Assembly: GCA_947626285.1 (NCBI GenBank)
Contig: CANQRR010000003.1
Span: 1-64,000, forward strand
Direction: 5' to 3'
Length of the DNA stretch: 64,000 bases
From: an uncultured Lachnospiraceae bacterium
GTDB taxonomy: Bacteria > Bacillota > Clostridia > Lachnospirales > Lachnospiraceae
Every line of letters starts with the position of its first letter. The stretch's first letter is position 1. Under the pieces are notes generated by a model. It was not told the DNA's origin and made no database searches. It worked only from the letters and a program-made list of their open reading frames with translations. The position numbers and the translations under genes are program-made. Of the stretch, positions 10,020 through 22,008 are shown piece by piece.

Positions 10020-10202
10020 ATGGACAAGAAAAAAGAAAACGCGAAAAAGCAGCTCCCTCTGCGGCTGTCCTCCTCCCTCTACAATGAGCTGGCGGCGTGG
10101 GCGGAGGACGACTTCCGCTCCGTCAACGGGCAGATCGAGTACCTGTTGACGGAATGCGTCCGCAAACGCCGCCGGAGCAAAAATCAGTCAAAAACTCCAT
10201 AA
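10020..10202 (+). CDS. Small Arc/ribbon-helix-helix-like protein
   Basis: A basic protein of 60 residues preceded by [37 protein letters not shown] gives the beta-strand plus first helix of an Arc-type fold, and [20 protein letters not shown] the second helix, so it is probably a DNA-binding protein. In the same direction as the SPFH gene, it may be its partner or regulator. Its last 19 bases overlap the 3' end of accA on the opposite strand, so the two genes converge with no room for a terminator between them. Confidence 0.7.
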
Positions 10203-11002
10203 CTGCGGAACCGGTTCTTCCTGCGCTTCACGATCTCCTCCGCGGACATTTCCTGATAACCTCTTAAAAAAGATTTGATCTCACATCTCATGGACAGCGC
10301 AAGCTCATCCATATCCGCTATATTTGCCGGCTGCGGCTCCGGGATCACTTTTTCGATGATTCCCATGTCCTTCAGTTCGGCCGCCGTCATTTTCATGATC
10401 TCAGCCGCCTCTTCCGCCCGCTTCTTGTCTTTCCACAGGATGGCGGCGAAGCCTTCCGGAGAGAGTACCGAATACACCGCATTTTCCAGCATCCAGACCT
10501 CGTTCGCCACAGCGAAAGCCAGCGCTCCCCCGGAGCCTCCTTCCCCGGTGATGATCGATAGAACCGGCACGCTCAGATTCGACAGTTCAAACAGATTACG
10601 GGCGATCGCCTCCCCCTGTCCGCGCTCTTCCGCCTCCATTCCGCAGAACGCCCCCGGCGTGTCGACAAAAAAGACGATCGGACGGGAAAATTTCTCCGCC
10701 TGCTTCGCGAGACGCAGCGCCTTCCGGTATCCTTCCGGATTCGGCATCCCGAAATTTCGATGCTTGTTCTCTTTCGCGTTCCGGCCTTTTTGCTGGCCGA
10801 TGACCGTGACATACTGCCTGTCAATTGCCGCGATCCCGCCGATCACCGCCCTGTCGTCGCCAAAAAGACGGTCTCCGTGCAGCTCGAGAAAACCGTCAAA
10901 TATCCTGGAAACATAATCTTTTATATAAGGTCTGTCCGCGCTGCGGGCAATCTGAACCCGATCCCACGCGCTCACAGCGTTCTCACGATTCTTTTCTTCC
11001 AT
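10184..11002 (-). CDS. accA: Acetyl-CoA carboxylase carboxyltransferase, alpha subunit
   Basis: This is half of the carboxyltransferase that moves the carboxyl group from biotin to acetyl-CoA to make malonyl-CoA. At about 272 residues it is shorter than the E. coli form (about 319), as usual in Firmicutes. Recognisable segments are [36 protein letters not shown]-like [20 protein letters not shown], and [20 protein letters not shown], the crotonase-type acyl-CoA site. I use ATG 11002 behind GAGGAGCGGTGGAT rather than GTG 11008. It overlaps the accD stop by 20 bases and is the last gene of the fatty-acid operon. Confidence 0.95.
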
Positions 11003-11843
11003 ATCCACCGCTCCTCAACAAGATTCCAAGTGTACTGCGCAGCCGCTCGCGTCTCACGATCCGGTCCACAAACCCGTGCTTCAGCAGGTATTCCGCGCTT
11101 TGGAATCCCTGAGGCAGCTTTTGTCCGATCGTCTGCCGGATCACGCGCGGTCCCGCAAAGCCGATCAGCGCTCCCGGCTCCGCAAGTATTACATCCCCGA
11201 GCATGGCAAAGCTCGCCGTCACCCCGCCGGTCGTCGGGTCTGTCAGCACCGGAATATACAAAAGACCCGCCTCGTCATGTTCCTTGATCGCCTGCGCCGT
11301 CCTGGCCATCTGCATCAGGGAGAAGATTCCCTCCTGCATGCGGGCGCCTCCGGAGCAGCAGAACAGGACGACCGGGAGCCGTTCAGTTGTCGCCCGACCG
11401 ATCATCCGCGTGATCTTCTCTCCCACAGCCGTCCCCATGCTTCCCATCAGAAAGTCTGCGGACATCACGCCCAGCGCCGTCCGTATCCCGCAGACGCGCG
11501 CTTCTCCTGTCACGATCGCCTCCGCATAGCCCGTGCTTTTCCGGAGCGCTTCCAGCTTTTCCTCATAGTCCTCAAACTGCAGAGGATTTCCTCCCGTCAG
11601 TCCACGGTCCCACTCCTGAAACGTGTTCTCATCCGCTATCATCGGAATGCGCTCCCGCGCTCCTATGCGGTAATACCTGCCGCATTTCGGACAGCTGTAC
11701 CAGTTATTTTCTATGTCCTCTTCGAGCACGATCTTCCCGCACCCGTCGCACTTCCGAAAGAGTCCGTCCGGCGCCTGCGGTTTTTTATAGGATATTTCTG
11801 CCTCCGCTTCCCCGGCGGGCTTTTTGAAATGTTCTTTCAGCAT
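10983..11843 (-). CDS. accD: Acetyl-CoA carboxylase carboxyltransferase, beta subunit
   Basis: A protein of 286 residues that pairs with AccA. The N-terminal zinc ribbon is intact: [20 protein letters not shown] followed by PKCGRYYR (two CxxC pairs, about residues 33-55). The crotonase-like body includes [20 protein letters not shown] and [23 protein letters not shown] overlaps the accC stop by seven bases, showing translational coupling in the order accC-accD-accA. Confidence 0.96.
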
Positions 11844-13216
11844 ACAGCGTCACCTTTTTCCATCTGTCTTTCTTCCATGCCGAGTTCTATTCTCTGATTG
11901 AGCGCCCGCGCGTCGCCAGAGGCAAATTCCTGACTGCTGACGAGCTCGTACTGGAAGTCCAGATTCGTGGCGATTCCTTCTATCACCAGCTCTCCCAGCG
12001 CGCCTCTCATTTTGTGGATCGCCTCCTGTCTGTCGCCGCCGCAGACGATCACCTTCGCAAGCATCGAGTCGTAAAACGGAGGAACGGTATACCCCTGATA
12101 AAGCATCGTGTCCACGCGCACGCCGTTGCCGCCCGGCAGATAAAGCTCCCTGACGGTTCCCGTGCCGGGCAGAAATCCTTTCTCTGGATCCTCCGCGCAG
12201 ATCCTGCACTCGATCGCGTGACCGCGGCGGACAATGTCTTTCTGCTCAAACGCAAGCCTCTCCCCGGCGCTGACACGGATCATTTCCTTCACCAGATCAA
12301 TTCCCGTCACCATCTCCGTCACCGGATGCTCTACCTGGATTCGAGTGTTCATCTCCATAAAGTAAAACTGCCCGTCATCCTCCGCCAGAAACTCGACCGT
12401 CCCTGCGCTGTCGTACCCGACCGAGCGCGCCGCGCGCACAGCCGCGTCTCCCATTTGGACAAGCATATCGTCCGGCAGAAAGACCGCCGGCGTCTCTTCG
12501 ATCAGCTTCTGGTGTCTTCTCTGGATGCTGCAGTCCCGTTCCCCCAGATGGACGCTGTTTCCGTACCGGTCCGCGAGGATCTGGATTTCGATATGGCGCG
12601 CATGCGGGAGGTACTTTTCCAGATACATCTGATCGTCCCCGAACGCCTGTATCGTCTCCTGCTGAGCCATCTCGAACAGTTTTTCAAAATCCTCTTCCCG
12701 TTCCACGACACGCATCCCCTTACCGCCGCCCCCGGCCGATGCCTTGATGATGAGCGGGTAACCGATCGCGGACGCCAGCTTCTTCGCCTCGTTCACGTCG
12801 CTCATCGCCTCGTCCGTGCCCGGTATGACCGGCACGCTCGCCTTTTTCATGGCTCTGCGGGCCGCGGCCTTGTCCCCCATCTGCTCCATGATCTCCGGAG
12901 AAGGCCCGATAAAATCGATCCCGCACTGCCTGCACATCCGCGCAAATTTCGTGTTCTCCGAGAGAAAACCGAAGCCCGGATGGATGGCCTGGGCTCCCGC
13001 GGCAAGCGCCGCGCTCAGGACGCTCTCCGCATTCAGATAGCTGTCCGCGGGACGCGGTCCTCCGATGCAGATGCACTCGTCGGCAAGCTGGGCGTGCAGA
13101 GCCTCCCGATCCGCTTCAGAGCACACGGCGACCGTCCGTATGTCCATCTCCCTGCATGCGCGGATAATGCGCACGGCGATCTCTCCGCGGTTTGCGATCA
13201 GGATCTTGTGGTACAT
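11837..13216 (-). CDS. accC: Biotin carboxylase
   Basis: An ATP-grasp enzyme of 459 residues that carboxylates biotin on AccB using bicarbonate. N-terminal domain: [20 protein letters not shown]; glycine-rich ATP loop: [14 protein letters not shown] (about residue 160); catalytic region: [20 protein letters not shown]. Length and motifs are standard. A 146-base gap separates it from fabZ, the longest gap in the operon apart from its leader, with no clear promoter seen in it. Confidence 0.96.
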
Positions 13217-13362: not shown

Positions 13363-13788
13363 TCATTGTATCGCAAAGGTCAGCTCCGCCTCCGCGCAGA
13401 GCTGCCCCTGCACGTAGGCTTTCGCCTGTCCGACTCCTACCGGTCCCTTGATCTTCACCAGCTCGGTCTCGAGCGTAATCACATCCCCCGGCACGACCTT
13501 CTGGCGGAAACGGGCGTTTTTGATCCCTCCGAAAAAGGCGATTCTGCCTTTGTATTGTTCGCAGGACAGCAGCGCCACAGCGCCCACCTGTGCCAGCGCC
13601 TCGCAGATCAGCACCCCCGGCATCACCGGCTCGGCCGGGAAATGCCCGGCGAAAAACGGCTCATTGTAAGTGACCGCCTTGCGCCCGACCGCCTTCTTTC
13701 CAGGTTCCAGCTCATCGATGCAGTCTACCAGCAGAAACGGCGCGCGGTGCGGTAAAATTTCCATGATCTGTTTTGTATTTAATCTCAT
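13363..13788 (-). CDS. fabZ: 3-hydroxyacyl-ACP dehydratase FabZ
   Basis: A hot-dog-fold enzyme of 141 residues dehydrating 3-hydroxyacyl-ACP. Diagnostic segments are [17 protein letters not shown], then [20 protein letters not shown], which carries the catalytic His, and [11 protein letters not shown] with the catalytic Glu. It begins one base after the accB stop, with GGAGGCATAA as ribosome site. Confidence 0.96.
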
Positions 13789-14292
13789 TTATGCCTCCCT
13801 GATCCGCATCAGCGGCTGTCCGTATTCCACGAGCTGTTCATTTTCGACCAGAACCTTCTCCACGATACCGTCATACTCCGACTCGATCTCGTTCATCAGC
13901 TTCATGGCCTCCACGATCCCTACGATCTGTCCCTTTTTCACTGTGTCTCCCTCGGTGACAAACGGTTCCTTGTCCTTCGCCGGAGCCGCGTAAAAGGTGC
14001 CTACCATCGGACAGTCGATCGTGATTCCTGCCGCGTTCTCCGCATTTCCCGCCTTTTCCGCCTTTGCTCCTCCTGCCGTTTCACCCGTCCTGCCTCCGCC
14101 GGCAGAAGCCTGCACGATCTGCGGCGCGGGATTCACTCTTTTGGAAACCGACGGGCACACAGCCTCTTCCTCACCGCCGCCTTTTCTCTTGATTGATAGT
14201 TTGATATCCGCATCTTTGTATGCAAAGGAATCCAGCTCCGCTTCGTTCACCTTGTCGATCACCGAAAAAATCTCATCCAGTTCCAGTTTCAT
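13789..14292 (-). CDS. accB: Biotin carboxyl carrier protein of acetyl-CoA carboxylase
   Basis: About 167 residues starting at ATG 14292; a longer frame from 14307 would overlap the fabF end more deeply. The N-terminal helix region (MKLELDEIFSVIDKVNEAEL) and a Pro/Ala-rich flexible linker (about residues 55-90) precede the biotinyl domain with VEAMKLMNEIE, in which the Lys is biotinylated. The start lies close to the fabF stop with GGGGTGAAAGG across the junction. Confidence 0.95.
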   Translation of the reverse strand: MKLELDEIFSVIDKVNEAELDSFAYKDADIKLSIKRKGGGEEEAVCPSVSKRVNPAPQIVQASAGGGRTGETAGGAKAEKAGNAENAAGITIDCPMVGTFYAAPAKDKEPFVTEGDTVKKGQIVGIVEAMKLMNEIESEYDGIVEKVLVENEQLVEYGQPLMRIREA

Positions 14293-14296
14293 CCTT

Positions 14297-15532
14297 TCAC
14301 CCCACAAACTTTCTGATCAGCAGGCTGCCATTGTGCCCGCCGAACCCAAGCGAATTGCTGATCGCCGCGTCGACGATCCGGGAAACGCCTTCTTTCGTGT
14401 AGTTCAGATCCATTTCCTCTTCCGCCTCGCAGAAACCCGCCGTGGCGTGGATATAGTCCTCCATCACACTCTTTACGCAGACGATGCACTCCGCCGCGCC
14501 GGCCGCGCCGAGCATATGCCCCGTCATCGACTTGGTAGAATTTACATTCAGGGAATACGCGTCTTCTCCGAACGCCTTTTTGATCGCGCGTGTCTCGCAC
14601 AGATCGTTATGGTAAGTTCCTGTTCCGTGCGCGTTGACGTACTGGACCTCCGCCGGGGCGATCCCCGCCTCCTGCATCGCCAATGTCATCGCACGCGCCG
14701 CGCCGTCCCCTGTCTCCTCCGGGGAAGTCATATGGTACGCGTCGCAGGTGGCCCCGTATCCGCCGATCTCCGCGAGGATACGCGCCCCTCTCGCCTGCGC
14801 GTGCTCCAGCGATTCCAGCACGAGCACCGCCGCGCCTTCTCCCATCACGAAACCTCCGCGTTCTCTGTCAAACGGAATGGAAGCGCGCAGCGGGTCTTCA
14901 CTCACAGACAGGGCGGTCAGCGCCGCAAAGCCGCTGATCCCGAGCGGCGTGATAGCAGCTTCCGTCCCTCCCGCAAGCATAACGTCCGCATCCCCATACT
15001 GGATGCAGCGATACGCCTCTCCGATGGAATGGGTTCCCGTCGCGCACGCTGTGACGACATTTATACATTTTCCCTTCAGGCCGAAATGGATCGCCACATT
15101 TCCCGCCGCCATATTGGTGATCATGCGCGGAACCATCAGCGGAGGAACCGCCTTCGGGCCCCTGCTTCTCAATTTGTCCGCCGCCTGTTCCAATATTTGC
15201 AGGCTTCCGATGCCGCAGCCGACCGACACGCCGATCCTTGTGCGGTCCTCGTTCTCCGCCACGAGAGCCGCGTCCCGGATCGCGTCCGACGCCGCCGCGA
15301 CCGCGTACTGGCTGAACAGCTCCATCTTTTTTGCTTCCTTGAAATCCATATAGGCTTCCGGGTCAAAATCATGGACTTCGGCCGCCAGCTTTACCCGGTA
15401 GTCCGAGGTATCAAATCTGGTCAGCTTCCCGATCCCTACTCTCGACGCTCTCAGACTGTCCCAGAATGTCTGAACCGTATTTCCGACAGGGGAGATGATT
15501 CCCATTCCTGTCACCACTACCCGTCTTCTCAA
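14297..15532 (-). CDS. fabF: 3-oxoacyl-ACP synthase II
   Basis: The elongating condensing enzyme, 411 residues. Catalytic Cys in VVTACATGTHSIGEA, first His in NAHGTGTYHNDLCE and second His in NSTKSMTGHMLGAAGAAE. The start is TTG at 15532 (then RRRVVVTGMGIISPVGN), with GGAGG nine bases upstream; the TTG overlaps the fabG stop TGA. Any longer frame is only the shadow of fabG. No fabH (initiating synthase) occurs in the window, so initiation must be encoded elsewhere or done differently. Confidence 0.95.
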   Translation of the reverse strand: MRRRVVVTGMGIISPVGNTVQTFWDSLRASRVGIGKLTRFDTSDYRVKLAAEVHDFDPEAYMDFKEAKKMELFSQYAVAAASDAIRDAALVAENEDRTRIGVSVGCGIGSLQILEQAADKLRSRGPKAVPPLMVPRMITNMAAGNVAIHFGLKGKCINVVTACATGTHSIGEAYRCIQYGDADVMLAGGTEAAITPLGISGFAALTALSVSEDPLRASIPFDRERGGFVMGEGAAVLVLESLEHAQARGARILAEIGGYGATCDAYHMTSPEETGDGAARAMTLAMQEAGIAPAEVQYVNAHGTGTYHNDLCETRAIKKAFGEDAYSLNVNSTKSMTGHMLGAAGAAECIVCVKSVMEDYIHATAGFCEAEEEMDLNYTKEGVSRIVDAAISNSLGFGGHNGSLLIRKFVG

Positions 15533-16284
15533 ATTCCCATTCCTCCATCTACCAGAATTGTCTGCCCCGTGATGTAGCCCGCATAGTCCGAGGCAAGAAA
15601 AGCCACCGTCCGCGCTACATCCTGCGGGTTCCCCATCCGCTTCAATGGAATCTGCGCAAGTATGGCATCCTTCACACTGTCCGGCAAGACCACCGTCATG
15701 TCTGTGTCGATATAGCCGGGCGCGACCGCGTTCACCGTAACATTGCGGCCGGCCAGTTCCTTTGCCAGGCACTTCGTCATACCGATCACGCCTGCCTTTG
15801 ACGCGCAGTAATTGATCTGTCCGGGATTTCCGTGCACTCCCGTGATCGACGAAATGCTGACGATCCTGCCGGAACGCTTTTTGATCATGCGTTTCCCCGC
15901 CAGCTTCATGCACAGAAACGCTCCCTTCAGGTTCGTCTCGATCACCCGATCAAATTCTTCCTCGCTCATGCGCACAGCCAGATTGTCCCTGGTGATCCCC
16001 GCATTGTTGACCAGAATGTCGATACTCCCAAGCTGCTGCTCCATGTCCTGAAACATCGCTTCGCACTGCGCCGCATCTGACACATCCGCGCGAACCGCGA
16101 TCGCACACCTTCCCAGATCACGGATCTCCTGCGCCGTTCTCTTCGCTGCATCCTCCGAACCGCTGTAATTTACCGCCACATCCGCGCCCAGACGCGCCAG
16201 CGTCAGCGCGATCGCCCGCCCGATTCCGCGTCCCCCGCCGGTAACAAGCGCCATTTTTCCTTCCAGTATCTTTTCTTCCTGCAT
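15529..16284 (-). CDS. fabG: 3-oxoacyl-ACP reductase FabG
   Basis: An NADPH-dependent short-chain dehydrogenase of 251 residues. Cofactor loop VTGGGRGIGRAIALTLARLG, NNAG motif in ILVNNAGITRDNLA, catalytic Ser/Tyr/Lys in SSITGVHGNPGQINYCASKA (Ser, Tyr and Lys all present), and the C-terminal YITGQTILVDGGMGI typical of FabG. The stop overlaps the fabF TTG start. Confidence 0.95.
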   Translation of the reverse strand: MQEEKILEGKMALVTGGGRGIGRAIALTLARLGADVAVNYSGSEDAAKRTAQEIRDLGRCAIAVRADVSDAAQCEAMFQDMEQQLGSIDILVNNAGITRDNLAVRMSEEEFDRVIETNLKGAFLCMKLAGKRMIKKRSGRIVSISSITGVHGNPGQINYCASKAGVIGMTKCLAKELAGRNVTVNAVAPGYIDTDMTVVLPDSVKDAILAQIPLKRMGNPQDVARTVAFLASDYAGYITGQTILVDGGMGI

Positions 16285-16357: not shown

Positions 16358-17278
16358 TCACAGCATCTGCTTTACCTGCGCCAGATCCTCCGGCGTCTCC
16401 ACGGAAAACGCCCGCGCCGTGCAGTCGATCTTTTTCAGAAAACCGCACAGGGTTTTCCCCGGTCCGATCTCGATAAACGTATCCGCGCCCTCAGAGATCA
16501 GATATTCCATACTCTGCCTCCATAGCACGGAGGAGCAGACCTGCCGGGCCAAAAGTCCTTTTATCTGATCCGGATCGCTCTCCGCACGGGCCGTCACGTT
16601 CGATACGAACGTCAACTCCGGCGTTTTCAGTGGAACCCGCTCCAGAACTCCTTCCAGCTTTTCCCCTGCCTCTTTCAGCATGGGAGAATGGAACGGGCCG
16701 CTCACCTTCAACGGGACTACGCGGGCCGCGCCCGCTTCCAGAAGCTTCTGCGCCGCAGCTTTCACCGCCTCCGTCTCGCCGGAGATCACCTTCTGGCCCG
16801 GACAGTTGTCGTTTGCGACCGTGACGATCCCGGGGACGCTTTCGCAGATCTCCTCCACGGGAACCGGCCTGCGGCTCAGCACGGCGGCCATCATTCCCCG
16901 ACCTTCCGGGACAGCCTCCTGCATGTAGGCTCCTCTTTCGCACACCGTGCGCAGCGCGTCTTCAAATCCTAAAGCGCCTGCCGCCGTCAGCGCGCAGTAT
17001 TCCCCCAGGCTCAGTCCCGCCGCGGCCTCCGCCTGTATCCCTTCGCCGCGCACCGCCGCCAGGATCGCGCAACACGCCGTCAGAAGCGCGGGCTGCGTGT
17101 ACCTCGTCTCATTCAAGCGGGAATTTTCGGTAAAACAAAGCTCCTCCATGGAATATCCGGTCAGCTTTGACGCCTTTTCAAATACCGCACGGCATACCTC
17201 ATACGAATCGTAAAATTTCTGTGCCATGCCGACATATTGCGCTCCCTGACCCGGGAACAAAAATACTGTCTTACTCAT
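16358..17278 (-). CDS. fabD: Malonyl-CoA:ACP transacylase
   Basis: Transfers malonyl from CoA to ACP; 306 residues. FLFPGQGAQYVGMAQKFYD is the oxyanion start. The nucleophile elbow reads AAAGLSLGEYCALTAAG: the catalytic Ser is present but the residue two before it is Leu where the classical motif is GHSxGE, a variant I recall in clostridial relatives. The catalytic His is in VSGPFHSPMLKEAG. Start ATG follows AAGAGGAGAATGGT. The 73 bases before fabG hold nothing recognisable. Confidence 0.94.
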   Translation of the reverse strand: MSKTVFLFPGQGAQYVGMAQKFYDSYEVCRAVFEKASKLTGYSMEELCFTENSRLNETRYTQPALLTACCAILAAVRGEGIQAEAAAGLSLGEYCALTAAGALGFEDALRTVCERGAYMQEAVPEGRGMMAAVLSRRPVPVEEICESVPGIVTVANDNCPGQKVISGETEAVKAAAQKLLEAGAARVVPLKVSGPFHSPMLKEAGEKLEGVLERVPLKTPELTFVSNVTARAESDPDQIKGLLARQVCSSVLWRQSMEYLISEGADTFIEIGPGKTLCGFLKKIDCTARAFSVETPEDLAQVKQML

Positions 17279-17290
17279 ACCATTCTCCTC

Positions 17291-18232
17291 TTACGCGAAC
17301 CGACCAGCGTGGGACAGCAGCTCTTCCGCCTGCTGTGCGATCTCCTGAATCATTTCCCCGCAGGTCTGCTTCCTGGATATCAGGCCCGCAATCTGCCCGG
17401 CCATCATGGAACCGTTTTTCGTGTCGCCCTCCTGCACCGCGCGACGCAGGGAACCGATCGTCATCTCCTCAAGCTCCTCGAAGCTGCAGCCTTCCTTTTC
17501 ACGCTTCAGATATTCCTTTGTCATCTGGTTGCGCAGGGTGCGCACCGGATGTCCGGTCGACCGGCCTGTCACAGCCGTACCGATATCCTTCGCTTTCAGC
17601 ACGCTCTCCTTGTAATTCGGATGGATCACACATTCCTCCGCCACAAGAAAGCGCGTACCCATCTGTACGCCGTCCGCGCCGAGCATCAGCGCCGCAGCAA
17701 GACCGCGCCCGTCCCCGATGCCGCCTGCCGCCACTACCGGTATCTGTACCGCGTCTGCAACCTGCGGAACCAAAGCCATCGTCGTCGCCTCGCCGATATG
17801 TCCGCCGGACTCGCAGCCTTCCGCGATCACGGCGTCCGCCCCCGCACGCTGCATCATCTTGGCCAGCGCCACGGACGCCACCACCGGAAGCACCTTGATC
17901 CCCGCTTCCTTCCACTGTTCCATATAGGGGCCCGGATTTCCCGCGCCGGTCGTCACGACCGGGACTTTTTCTTCCGCTGCGATCGCCGCGATCTCCTCCG
18001 CATACGGACTCAGCAGCATCACATTGACGCCAAAAGGCCGATCCGTCTTTTCTCTGGTTTTCCGGATCTCCGCTCTGACATAGTTCGCCGGCGCGTTTGC
18101 CGCCGCGATGATCCCAAGCCCTCCGGCGTTCGACACCGCAGACGCCAGGCTGCTCTCCGCCACCCAGGCCATCCCTCCCTGAATGATCGGGTAGCGGATG
18201 CCGAGCAGCTCCGTCAATGCCGTCCTGATCAT
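17291..18232 (-). CDS. fabK: Enoyl-ACP reductase II (FMN-dependent, FabK)
   Basis: A flavoprotein of 313 residues of the nitronate-monooxygenase/FabK fold, catalysing the last step of each elongation cycle in place of FabI. Features are LLGIRYPIIQGGMAWVAESS, the GSPVVTTGAGNP-like VPVVTTGAGNPG, AEGCESGGHIGEATTMALVP, and PVVAAGGIGDGRGLAAALML with the phosphate-binding glycine loop. It overlaps the acpP stop by four bases (ATGA). Confidence 0.94.
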   Translation of the reverse strand: MIRTALTELLGIRYPIIQGGMAWVAESSLASAVSNAGGLGIIAAANAPANYVRAEIRKTREKTDRPFGVNVMLLSPYAEEIAAIAAEEKVPVVTTGAGNPGPYMEQWKEAGIKVLPVVASVALAKMMQRAGADAVIAEGCESGGHIGEATTMALVPQVADAVQIPVVAAGGIGDGRGLAAALMLGADGVQMGTRFLVAEECVIHPNYKESVLKAKDIGTAVTGRSTGHPVRTLRNQMTKEYLKREKEGCSFEELEEMTIGSLRRAVQEGDTKNGSMMAGQIAGLISRKQTCGEMIQEIAQQAEELLSHAGRFA

Positions 18233-18462
18233 TCGTCGATCCCCTTTCCGGCCAGATAATCCACAACAGACTGAACCGTCGTCAGATTCTCCAGCTCTTC
18301 CGCCGGAATCTCGATGTCGTACTCTTCTTCCAGCGCGCTCACAAGCTCAAACAGATCGAGGGAATCCGCACCCAGATCCGCCTTAAAATCCGCCTCCGGG
18401 ATCACCCGGCTTTCCTCCACATGCAGCTGCTCCGCTACGATCGAAACCAATTTCTCCAACAT
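18229..18462 (-). CDS. acpP: Acyl carrier protein
   Basis: An acidic protein of 77 residues carrying the growing acyl chain on phosphopantetheine at the Ser of ADLGADSLDLFELVSALEEE. ATG 18462 lies behind AAGAGGAGAAAAAT; the frame continues upstream to GTG 18552, but that part shows no ACP homology. First gene of the fatty-acid operon. The leader upstream holds a palindromic operator and two copies of GGAGGAATAT. Confidence 0.93.
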   Translation of the reverse strand: MLEKLVSIVAEQLHVEESRVIPEADFKADLGADSLDLFELVSALEEEYDIEIPAEELENLTTVQSVVDYLAGKGIDE

Positions 18463-18615: not shown

Positions 18616-18632
18616 CAGCACACAGTGTGCTG
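18616..18632. promoter_or_regulatory. Candidate TetR operator in front of the fatty-acid operon
   Basis: CAGCACACAGTGTGCTG, a 17-bp palindrome with arms CAGCACA and TGTGCTG. The same arms with the same 3-bp spacing recur at the promoter of the neighbouring TetR gene. The site lies about 150 bases upstream of acpP. I do not see a convincing promoter match around it, so the exact mode of action is open. Confidence 0.7.
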
Positions 18633-18675
18633 AAAATGGCCGAAACAAGGCGCCGCACGGCGACGCTGTTTAAAT

Positions 18676-19257
18676 TTATTTTATTTTCATTCCATCCAGA
18701 AATATACCAAAGGCATAGCGGAAACCGCGCATGGCTTCCTCCTCAGGCAATTCCCTCGCGAGCGCATCCGCATTGTAGCCACGAATGAAGCACCAGATGG
18801 CGTAGCTCATCGTTTCGGAGTCCAGATCCGGTCTGGCAATGCCGCGACTCTTGCCAAGCTCAATAAGCCCGCAGATCCGCTCCTGCCACCAGCGGTAATT
18901 CTCCTGCGATGTGCTGTCCTGAGCGAAGACATACTGGTTCATGCCGGACTTCAGCTTATACGAGAGCGTCAGCGTCTCTGCGGCGATGTCCGTGATCTGT
19001 CCGAAGAAATCTCCATCCGGATCAAAACGGTCTACAATGCTCTGGCGCATTCTGACCGCCATATCCCGATAGACAAGGGCAAGCACCTCCTCCACATTGT
19101 GAAAGCGGTTGTAAAAAACTCTGTTCGTCACATTCAGCGCCCGGATGATCTTCCGAACTGTGACGTCCCCTGCCCCTTCGTTCATGGCCAGCCTGGCCGC
19201 CTCGTCCACGATCCTGCCGCTCATCTCGTCGTGAATGAGCGCTTCGCTCTCCGGCAT
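18676..19257 (-). CDS. TetR/AcrR-family regulator, probable controller of the fatty-acid operon
   Basis: About 193 residues from ATG 19257, seven bases after GGGAG; a GTG at 19278 would lie inside the operator. N-terminal helix-turn-helix: VTVRKIIRALNVTNRVFYNR, then FHNVEEVLALVYRDM, typical of TetR. The ligand-binding C-terminal domain (about residues 60-193) is unassigned but includes the aromatic-rich YVFAQDSTSQENYRWWQERI. The gene is on the same strand as, and directly upstream of, acpP-accA. Identical-arm palindromes sit at its own promoter and in front of acpP. Clostridial and streptococcal operons of this type are more often governed by FabT (MarR family) or FapR, neither of which is present here. 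Confidence 0.85.
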   Translation of the reverse strand: MPESEALIHDEMSGRIVDEAARLAMNEGAGDVTVRKIIRALNVTNRVFYNRFHNVEEVLALVYRDMAVRMRQSIVDRFDPDGDFFGQITDIAAETLTLSYKLKSGMNQYVFAQDSTSQENYRWWQERICGLIELGKSRGIARPDLDSETMSYAIWCFIRGYNADALARELPEEEAMRGFRYAFGIFLDGMKIK

Positions 19258-19271
19258 AGCTTCACTCCCTT

Positions 19272-19290
19272 TCAGCACAGTGTGTGCTGA
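19272..19290. promoter_or_regulatory. Candidate TetR autoregulatory operator
   Basis: TCAGCACAGTGTGTGCTGA, perfect 8-bp arms around GTG. It begins just downstream of the -10 box, over the expected transcription start. Confidence 0.75.
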
Positions 19291-19291
19291 G

Positions 19292-19320
19292 AATATATCA
19301 CAAACTTATCCTGATGTCAA
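19292..19320 (-). promoter_or_regulatory. Promoter of the TetR-family gene
   Basis: TTGACA (19320-19315), 17-bp spacer, TATATT (19297-19292), directly followed by the palindrome. Confidence 0.8.
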
Positions 19321-20489: not shown

Positions 20490-20954
20490 TCAAGGATTCT
20501 GATCAAAATTTCCCTCCTTCTTTGTCAAAGTTCCGATGATCTGGTACAGCGTCTGATACAGTTCCGCGGCTTTCTGCGGTTCGAGCTCTACGCAGGCCGC
20601 AAGTCTCGCAGGAACGGTGCGCGCCTTTTCTCGCAGGGCAGTTCCTGCATCTGTTATGGAAACGATCAGGTCGCGTTCGTCTTCGGTCGAGCGGCGTCGC
20701 GCCACATACCCCTTTTCCTCCAACCGTTTGAGCAAAGGCGTCAGCGTGCTGGAATCAAGATACAGGTATTTTCCGACTTCCTTCACCCGCAGTTCCTTAT
20801 GCTCCCACATCACCATCATCGTGATATACTGCGTATAGGTCAGGTCGAGTTCGTCGAGGTACGGCTTATATGCTTTCACAATTTCTTTCGCACAAGCATA
20901 GAGTGGAAAACATATTTGGTTTTCGAGTTTTAGTGGGTCAAATGGAACCGCCAT
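20490..20954 (-). CDS. MarR-family repressor of the OhrR type (organic peroxide sensor)
   Basis: A winged-helix dimer of 154 residues. LENQICFPLYACAKEIVKAY has the Cys at residue 15 in the position of the OhrR sensing cysteine, with the nearby Tyr. The winged helix includes LYLDSSTLTPLLKRLEEKGY and the wing RRRSTEDERDLIVSIT. It is the third gene after glutathione peroxidase and the flavodoxin-like gene on the same strand, so it should derepress its own operon on oxidation. Gaps between the genes are 3 and 15 bases. Confidence 0.82.
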   Translation of the reverse strand: MAVPFDPLKLENQICFPLYACAKEIVKAYKPYLDELDLTYTQYITMMVMWEHKELRVKEVGKYLYLDSSTLTPLLKRLEEKGYVARRRSTEDERDLIVSITDAGTALREKARTVPARLAACVELEPQKAAELYQTLYQIIGTLTKKEGNFDQNP

Positions 20955-20969
20955 GATTTTTGCCTCCCT

Positions 20970-21377
20970 TTACGATAAGATCCCCCTTGCAAAATCCGCG
21001 GCGGCCTTTTGGTCGGCCTCATTTGGTCTGCCTTTGTGAAGCATTGCAAAAGCGCCCCGGCAGGAAAATTCTTCTTTCGCAACAGGGATTTTCTTATCCG
21101 CAAGCAGCTTTTCCACATACTTGCGGGTAGATTTGACGGCGGCGGATGTGCTGAAATTCACGACTTTGCCCACGGATACATGGATGCCGCTGATGAACTT
21201 TTTTACTTCGTCGTCTACATCGAAAGCATACGGGGCGCTGCCGAGGAACAGAATATCCACATCTTCGGTCAGCGGTTCCGATACCGTTTTTGCTTCCACG
21301 CCAACGGCTTTCGCAATCGCCTCCGCAATCTTTTTCGTGTTGCCGCCTCTTGAATAGTACCGTACTTCAATATTCAT
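20970..21377 (-). CDS. Flavodoxin-like protein
   Basis: A single flavodoxin fold of 135 residues. The FMN phosphate loop reads MNIEVRYYSRGGNTKKIAEA (S-R-G-G-N-T-K), followed by ILFLGSAPYAFDVDDEVKKF and FSTSAAVKSTRKYVEKLL. It probably transfers electrons to an oxidoreductase. Its place between a peroxidase and an OhrR-type repressor suggests a reductant role in peroxide defence; the partner is not known. Confidence 0.75.
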   Translation of the reverse strand: MNIEVRYYSRGGNTKKIAEAIAKAVGVEAKTVSEPLTEDVDILFLGSAPYAFDVDDEVKKFISGIHVSVGKVVNFSTSAAVKSTRKYVEKLLADKKIPVAKEEFSCRGAFAMLHKGRPNEADQKAAADFARGILS

Positions 21378-21380
21378 TTC

Positions 21381-21920
21381 TTACAGCACCTCCTCAACCT
21401 TTGCCTTTACCTTGTCAAGAGATTCGGTCGGCTCAAAGCGTGCAACGATCTCCCCGTTGCGGTCGATCAGAAACTTCGTGAAGTTCCACTTGATATTGCC
21501 GTTGTTCTTGTAATCCTTGTCCATCTTTTTGGCAATGCCCTTCAACACCAATCCCATCGGGCCGGAAAATCCGGCAAAGGTGGTGTTCTCCGTCAGATAT
21601 TTGTAGAGCGGGATCGCGTTGTCACCGTTTACATCGATCTTGGCAAACTGCGGAAAGGTGATGCCATACCGTCCGGTGCAGAAGCTGTGAATCTCCTCGT
21701 CGCTACCCGGAGCTTGCTCCCCGAACTGATTGCAGGGGAAATCGAGGATCTCCAGTCCGTCTTTCTGGTGAAGCTCATATAAATCCTGAAGTTCACTGTA
21801 CTGCGGCGTAAATCCACATCCGGTCGCCGTATTGACAATAAGCAAAACCTTCCCCTTATAATCGGCCAGCGATACATCAGTTCCCTCCTGCGTCCTGATC
21901 TTGAAATCGTAGATGCTCAT
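21381..21920 (-). CDS. Glutathione peroxidase-family thiol peroxidase (Cys type)
   Basis: About 179 residues from ATG 21920 behind GAAAGGAGACCAAACT. The catalytic site is NTATGCGFTPQY with Cys (no selenocysteine codon), FPCNQFGEQAPG with the catalytic Gln and a probable resolving Cys, and IKWNFTKFLIDRNG with the Trp/Asn. Bacterial enzymes of this type usually take electrons from thioredoxin. First gene of the peroxidase/flavodoxin/OhrR operon, with a strong promoter upstream. Confidence 0.92.
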   Translation of the reverse strand: MSIYDFKIRTQEGTDVSLADYKGKVLLIVNTATGCGFTPQYSELQDLYELHQKDGLEILDFPCNQFGEQAPGSDEEIHSFCTGRYGITFPQFAKIDVNGDNAIPLYKYLTENTTFAGFSGPMGLVLKGIAKKMDKDYKNNGNIKWNFTKFLIDRNGEIVARFEPTESLDKVKAKVEEVL

Positions 21921-21979
21921 AGTTTGGTCTCCTTTCGCTATCTTGCTTGTGCTTAATTTAATCTTGCGCGATTGATTGT

Positions 21980-22008
21980 AGTATACTTCCACTTTTTCTT
22001 ATTGTCAA
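21980..22008 (-). promoter_or_regulatory. Promoter of the peroxidase operon
   Basis: TTGACA (22008-22003), 17-bp spacer, TATACT (21985-21980). GAAGTATACTAC across the -10 is a near palindrome and could be the OhrR-type repressor's site. Confidence 0.75.

Follow-up and report, generated by a model that had tools for sequence, protein, structure and literature searches.

The fatty-acid synthesis genes of an uncultured Lachnospiraceae bacterium follow a gene for a TetR-family regulator, and the palindrome CAGCACA-N3-TGTGCTG is present both in front of this regulator gene and behind it. Do the regulator and the two palindromes control fatty-acid synthesis, as an original prediction made from the DNA alone had proposed? 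The window analysed here is a stretch of 64,000 nucleotides (contig CANQRR010000003.1), and all genes of the locus lie on its minus strand. The regulator gene, tetR (18676–19257), encodes 193 amino acids and was assigned from its PF00440 TetR_N domain (27.1 bits, cut-off 24), from an AF2 model with an all-helical TetR fold (pLDDT 90.7) and from the loci of relatives. It is followed by acpP (18229–18462), the acyl carrier protein gene that opens the fab operon and was recognised by a family scan, and by fabK (17291–18232), encoding enoyl-ACP reductase II (TIGR03151 over cut-off). Next come fabD (16358–17278), fabG (15529–16284), fabF (14297–15526, start approximate), accB (13789–14292, start approximate), fabZ (13363–13788) and accC, accD and accA (10184–13216), whose names were read from sequence. 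A close fabH may be absent from this genome or very different in it: a relative's FabH matches only a 28%-identical protein (G000:C20:5525-6424). Elsewhere in the window (20490–21992), a MarR-family gene closest to OhrR stands beside flavodoxin-like and glutathione-peroxidase-like genes (names read from sequence), perhaps forming a peroxide-response cluster.

The arms of the two palindromes, 7 bases each, are identical and stand 3 bases apart in both, as had been claimed. The predicted operator 1 (O1; CAGCACAGTGTGTGCTG, 19273–19289, no strand assigned) lies between the -10 element and the ribosome-binding site of tetR; the interval first given for it, 19272–19290, extends this site by one T/A pair. 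The predicted operator 2 (O2; CAGCACACAGTGTGCTG, 18616–18632, likewise unstranded) lies between tetR and acpP, 43 bp past the tetR stop codon and ~153 bp ahead of the acpP ATG, in line with the original estimate of about 150 bp. From base composition, 0.0003 exact matches are expected per window and 0.016 per genome (3.73 Mb), and the window has 12 perfect palindromes of 7-3-7 form, among which CAGCACA is the only arm to occur twice. A search of the whole genome, which the prediction had also envisaged, bore out the pair but placed sites at the tetR-acpP locus only. O1 and O2 are the sole places with 0–1 mismatches in 3.73 Mb, and the 14 places with two mismatches represent no excess (16 places in all, compared with 27 for a reversed control pattern).

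O1 directly follows a promoter, TTGACA-17-TATATT (19292–19320, minus strand), that agrees with the consensus at 11/12 positions, and it overlies the position where transcription should begin, in agreement with the prediction; promoter-like sites in the tetR region number two, with 1.2 expected. This overlap recurs in relatives. O1 begins 6–13 nt downstream of the first base of the -10 element in 83 of 95 loci, which still include some double-fetched ones, compared with 29 of 475 controls in which the bases outside the sites were shuffled. The offset from the -10 is that of a repressor, and the placement of O1 over the start of a strong promoter is as expected of self-repression.

A scan of relatives, with one genome per species, yielded 104 stretches encoding TetR relatives, the best 80 of which (45–98% identity) were kept. 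Their record titles denote MAGs or uncultured isolates, nearly all of them Clostridia, Lachnospiraceae or Oscillospiraceae. The operator consensus among these TetR relatives is the 17-bp sequence YAGCACACNGTGTGCTR. With at least 12/14 matches required, a site lies within 200 bp upstream of tetR in 71 of the 78 loci with enough sequence and is missing in 7; a downstream site lies within 200 bp in 46 of 80 loci. Sites of at least 12/14 number 132 in the 46,853 positions around tetR and 5 in 765,924 positions elsewhere in the same loci, and a loose motif found 144 places in 60 tetR genomes from among those of the 80 loci, compared with 19 for a reversed control. In a class sample of 391 genomes, own genome included and TetR called at E up to 1e-20, the TetR is present in 29 genomes (13 families, 21 genera) and the strict motif CAGCACACNGTGTGCTG in 9, all among those 29 (Fisher p about 2e-11). 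Leaving out the window's own genome, the motif occurs in 8 of 28 TetR genomes, with the reservation that the motif was sharpened on the first scan and some class genomes also supplied its loci, so that the sets are not fully independent. A chance origin of the sites is rejected by the base-composition expectation, the clustering near tetR and the co-occurrence with TetR. By computation, the TetR and its predicted operator form a tight, coupled pair. All 45 aligned relatives share an unchanged RVFYNRF in the DNA-recognition region, as would suit a single protein that reads a single operator.

We are largely confident in the following overall explanation, a lipid-responsive TetR repressor with a dedicated 17-bp operator that would act at both O1 and O2. 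Bound at O1, TetR would block transcription start from the tetR promoter and so limit its own synthesis, and it would also limit any read-through into acpP-fabK-fabD-fabG-fabF-accB-fabZ-accCDA; at O2 it would form a second block ahead of acpP. The signal is most likely a long-chain acyl thioester, either acyl-ACP or acyl-CoA, an assignment by analogy that we hold with moderate confidence and whose sign is uncertain. Many aromatic residues are conserved in the C-terminal half of the aligned relatives, and these would suit a hydrophobic ligand.

The window's genus gives a view of how the cassette may have reached acpP. A search for FabK was positive in 39 of 47 genomes of the genus, and 30 acpP loci were read, 5 with tetR, all of which have O2, and 25 without tetR. 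The prediction that the second site would be conserved in front of acpP proved correct where tetR is present: O2 is kept at 13–14/14 matches in 4/4 relatives with tetR beside acpP, and a site before acpP is absent in 24/24 judgeable loci without tetR, the 25th being too short upstream. The TetR protein was searched for in 36 of the 47 genomes (4 found), G068 was added via the motif and the other 10 were covered by motif search only; a looser motif occurs in 6/47, comprising the five known tetR carriers and G030, where the exact match lies within a coding gene. These data suggest that the tetR-operator cassette was acquired, by transfer as we infer, in the window's lineage and set before a FASII operon that is without it in sister species. 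The five acpP-linked proteins group as a single clade (100/100) in a tree of 105 TetRs. This clade is nested within DegV- and ADH-ALDH-linked proteins whose records bear the label Lapin (rabbit), and with a midpoint root the deep branches are mostly fabH-linked. The cassette may thus have originated at FASII, a step that is tentative because of the midpoint root, and would later have moved to uptake and alcohol genes and then, in the window's lineage, back to FASII. In the genus, many relatives that lack tetR carry a sigma-70-region-2-like gene ahead of acpP (L202-L226; one scanned), perhaps another way to control FASII. It is sometimes followed by a small membrane-like protein, which might be an anti-sigma factor, and a few loci have a gene there that reads as MutS2-like.

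The nested position of the acpP-linked clade bears on whether O2 acts at all. Repression might be exerted at O1 only, on a single tetR-fab transcript, with O2 a relic of the cassette's earlier target: the nearest outgroup TetRs have a DegV or ADH-ALDH gene behind them, and stem-loop and O2 are often arranged there as in the window. Moreover, no canonical promoter was found at O2 in the window. Across 64 O2 regions the sigma-A promoter score is no better than in shuffles (mean 8.97 vs 9.21), with the site falling between the best -35 and -10 in 17 of 64 regions compared with 7.4 expected, a mild excess. However, none of the five acpP-linked loci has lost O2, not even L017, with just 30 nt between O2 and acpP, and the terminator-like stem-loop ahead of it speaks against simple read-through. 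Repression at O1 only is therefore not negligible as a possibility, but we consider it unlikely.

The stem-loop (18650–18666, minus strand) lies just before O2, has a T-rich tail and contains one G-T pair that is A-T in L017. A stem-loop precedes O2 in 40 of 60 cases, compared with 0.6% in shuffles and 4 of 88 O1 sites, and in 30 of these 40 the stem ends 6–11 nt from the operator. The stem sequence varies among loci while pairing is kept. The tail is T-rich, as in an ordinary terminator, in the window and in 6/10 stems of L021-L041. An ordinary terminator is a poor fit in L042-L096, where tails are mostly A-rich: at least 5 A are present in 13/19 and at least 4 T in 2/19, the corresponding counts for other intergenic stems being 10 and 69 of 134. 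The RNA fold around O2 is ordinary (z -0.65), and Rfam on eight loci returned three tRNAs and three matches far under the gathering score. Downstream operators often form part of a module consisting of a stem-loop of free sequence, a short A/T tract, the TetR operator and a ribosome-binding site. This module also stands before the second operator of unlinked DegV leaders (L170:2671, L195:2501 and the short L166:394), indicating that the stem-loop is not simply the end of tetR; the unlinked DegV-synthetase leaders with the module already have an operator at their own promoter. It is conceivable, if distinctly doubtful, that the repressor would also act after initiation, either by bringing RNA polymerase to a halt within the leader or by influencing how transcripts terminate or are processed at the stem-loop. 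Between tetR and fabH, L231 and L244 each have three consecutive modules of variable stem-loop, A-rich tract and operator, whose stems pair without sharing sequence, and L240 and L241 (1333-1451) have four operators at an exact 34-bp spacing.

We then consider which genes the cassette accompanies. Across 102 distinct loci, the gene that comes next is synthetase-like in 26, fabH in 21, DegV in 19, of ADH/ALDH types in 12, an OYE-type reductase in 6, acpP-fabK in 4 and HAD in 2, with none recognised in 12. For these counts 7 double-fetched loci were removed and gene contexts were taken from tblastn of the next gene; the class of L021, with a DegV-like start ahead of ADH-ALDH, may be wrong. In the 28 other tetR genomes of the class sample, the fetched stretch downstream contains fabH in 21, DegV in 2, a synthetase-like gene in 2 and none recognised in 3, and an operator site is present in 25. 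The DegV proteins match FakB1 and the synthetases match long-chain acyl-CoA ligase models, all below the NCBIfam equivalog cut-offs, so that the names DegV (FakB-like) and synthetase are resemblances; the dehydrogenase neighbours likewise match named models only below these cut-offs. Judged by such assignments, the neighbours are mostly lipid genes, the OYE, AcnX and HAD neighbours not clearly so.

Sites also occur away from tetR. Forty regions were fetched and 6 containing tetR (L165, L168, L172, L178, L182 and L194) were excluded. In 10 of the remaining 34 the site lies upstream of DegV, synthetase or ADH-ALDH genes, counting L169, where a further gene separates the site from DegV, and L166, which is only a short piece with a DegV start and a synthetase end. 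In the other 24, no lipid gene was recognised after the site, and several of these sites are inside a coding gene. Two unlinked DegV-synthetase operons (L170 and L195) have the operator as the spacer between -35 and -10 (TTGACA-aa-operator-TATAAT); at one unlinked ADH-ALDH gene the layout is that of O1, with a consensus promoter ahead of the operator. A strict-motif operator in G450 lies on what reads as the promoter (TTGACA-17-TACAAT) of a fabH-acpP-fabK operon on a contig other than that of tetR, and in G472 a strict-motif site away from tetR precedes an iron alcohol dehydrogenase gene. In genome G102, two operators (L180:2501 and 2598) stand between divergent genes, one of them on the promoter of a 341-aa membrane protein, CPBP-type protease-like by reading, a possible non-lipid target.

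It could be argued that control by TetR is confined to its own gene and an unrelated target, such as drug efflux, and that its place before acpP is accidental, given that tetR stands beside acpP in only five genus genomes and has other neighbours elsewhere. Yet a synthetase-like, fabH, DegV or ADH/ALDH gene comes next in 78 of the 102 distinct loci and acpP-fabK in 4 more, O2 is retained in all four relatives with the acpP arrangement, and operators occur at unlinked fabH, DegV and synthetase genes. We regard accidental placement as very improbable; purely local autoregulation is unlikely, given the lipid neighbours and the unlinked operators. That the palindromes are RNA hairpins (terminator, attenuator or stabiliser) rather than protein operators is scarcely credible, for although each could form a hairpin with a stem of 7 bp and a 3-base loop and O2 comes after another stem-loop in many loci, their sequence is fixed beyond pairing (positions 3–7 and 11–15 at least 98% identical in the 132 sites, themselves picked by motif similarity), the strict motif occurs only alongside this TetR in the class sample, and O1 is locked to the promoter while the sites of L170 and L195 fill a -35/-10 spacer.

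The lipid-responsive repressor is the reading we retain. Near-identical sites precede fatty-acid synthesis and uptake genes in relatives, so this TetR probably controls membrane-lipid supply. At the level of comparative genomics, control of fatty-acid synthesis by the TetR and its palindromes is supported: across the class, the pair is met again in front of fabH-acpP-fabK operons and of genes of a fatty-acid uptake type.

Accounts of FASII control in Gram-positive bacteria usually centre on FapR and FabT. FapR, known from Bacillus, Listeria, Staphylococcus and C. difficile, has a fold other than TetR and malonyl-CoA as its ligand. The FabT gene stands before fabH-acpP-fabK type operons, and FabT uses acyl-ACP as co-repressor and has an operator that differs from that of the window TetR. 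FabR, DesT, FasR, Bacillus FadR and SaFadR are TetR-type regulators of fatty-acid genes, and EthR regulates a monooxygenase. The claim that neither FapR nor FabT is present stood for FapR: PRK04424, which we take to be the FapR model, has no match in the window genome (1 of 14 control genomes is over the cut-off). Absence of FabT is suggested only weakly, by five weak MarR matches to NCBIfam FabT model NF050133 (a MarR protein), the best at 37.8 bits of 200, with no control genome passing, Lactococcus lactis included. The window TetR is not among the matches of this model, and the MarR gene at 20490–20954 was rejected as FabT, its best model being OhrR (172.6 bits, below its 200 cut-off) compared with 32 bits for FabT.

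In one source, FabT is described as repressing fatty-acid genes globally in Gram-positive bacteria and FapR as a global repressor of lipid synthesis genes, and DesT and FabR are named among fatty-acid gene regulators (PMC5052256). No NCBIfam equivalog is over its cut-off for this TetR; the Bacillus-type FadR model NF053878 has no match listed for it and gives 22.1 bits of 200 with relative L075. Among the structural matches of the window TetR model, EthR2/EthR of Mycobacterium rank first, the likeness being in fold only (12–16% identity), and B. halodurans FadR (16% identity) and SaFadR in a DNA-bound structure (14%) are also listed. That FabR, DesT and FasR are not among the 50 structural matches listed is uninformative either way; the comparison with these three was made through the NCBIfam models. 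The accessible part of PMC12288450 does not mention a TetR regulator, and our literature search, with most subscription journals outside it, found no paper on this one. It is apparently an uncharacterised member of the TetR lipid repressors, themselves a known kind, and it has the palindromic operator at its own promoter that is a trait of the TetR family, present as a site in the window (O1) and in 71 of 78 related loci. The tight pairing of protein and operator would make its regulon readable from the genomes of gut bacteria mostly known from metagenomes, and the operators collected from relatives provide ready sites for testing. Synthesis from the fabH operon would share one operator with genes of scavenging type (DegV, acyl-CoA synthetase-like) and with alcohol/aldehyde dehydrogenases. 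We therefore propose another, apparently uncharacterised FASII regulator beside FapR and FabT, which differs from FabT in belonging to the TetR family rather than being a MarR winged-helix protein, and which, like FabT, would join the control of synthesis with that of scavenging.
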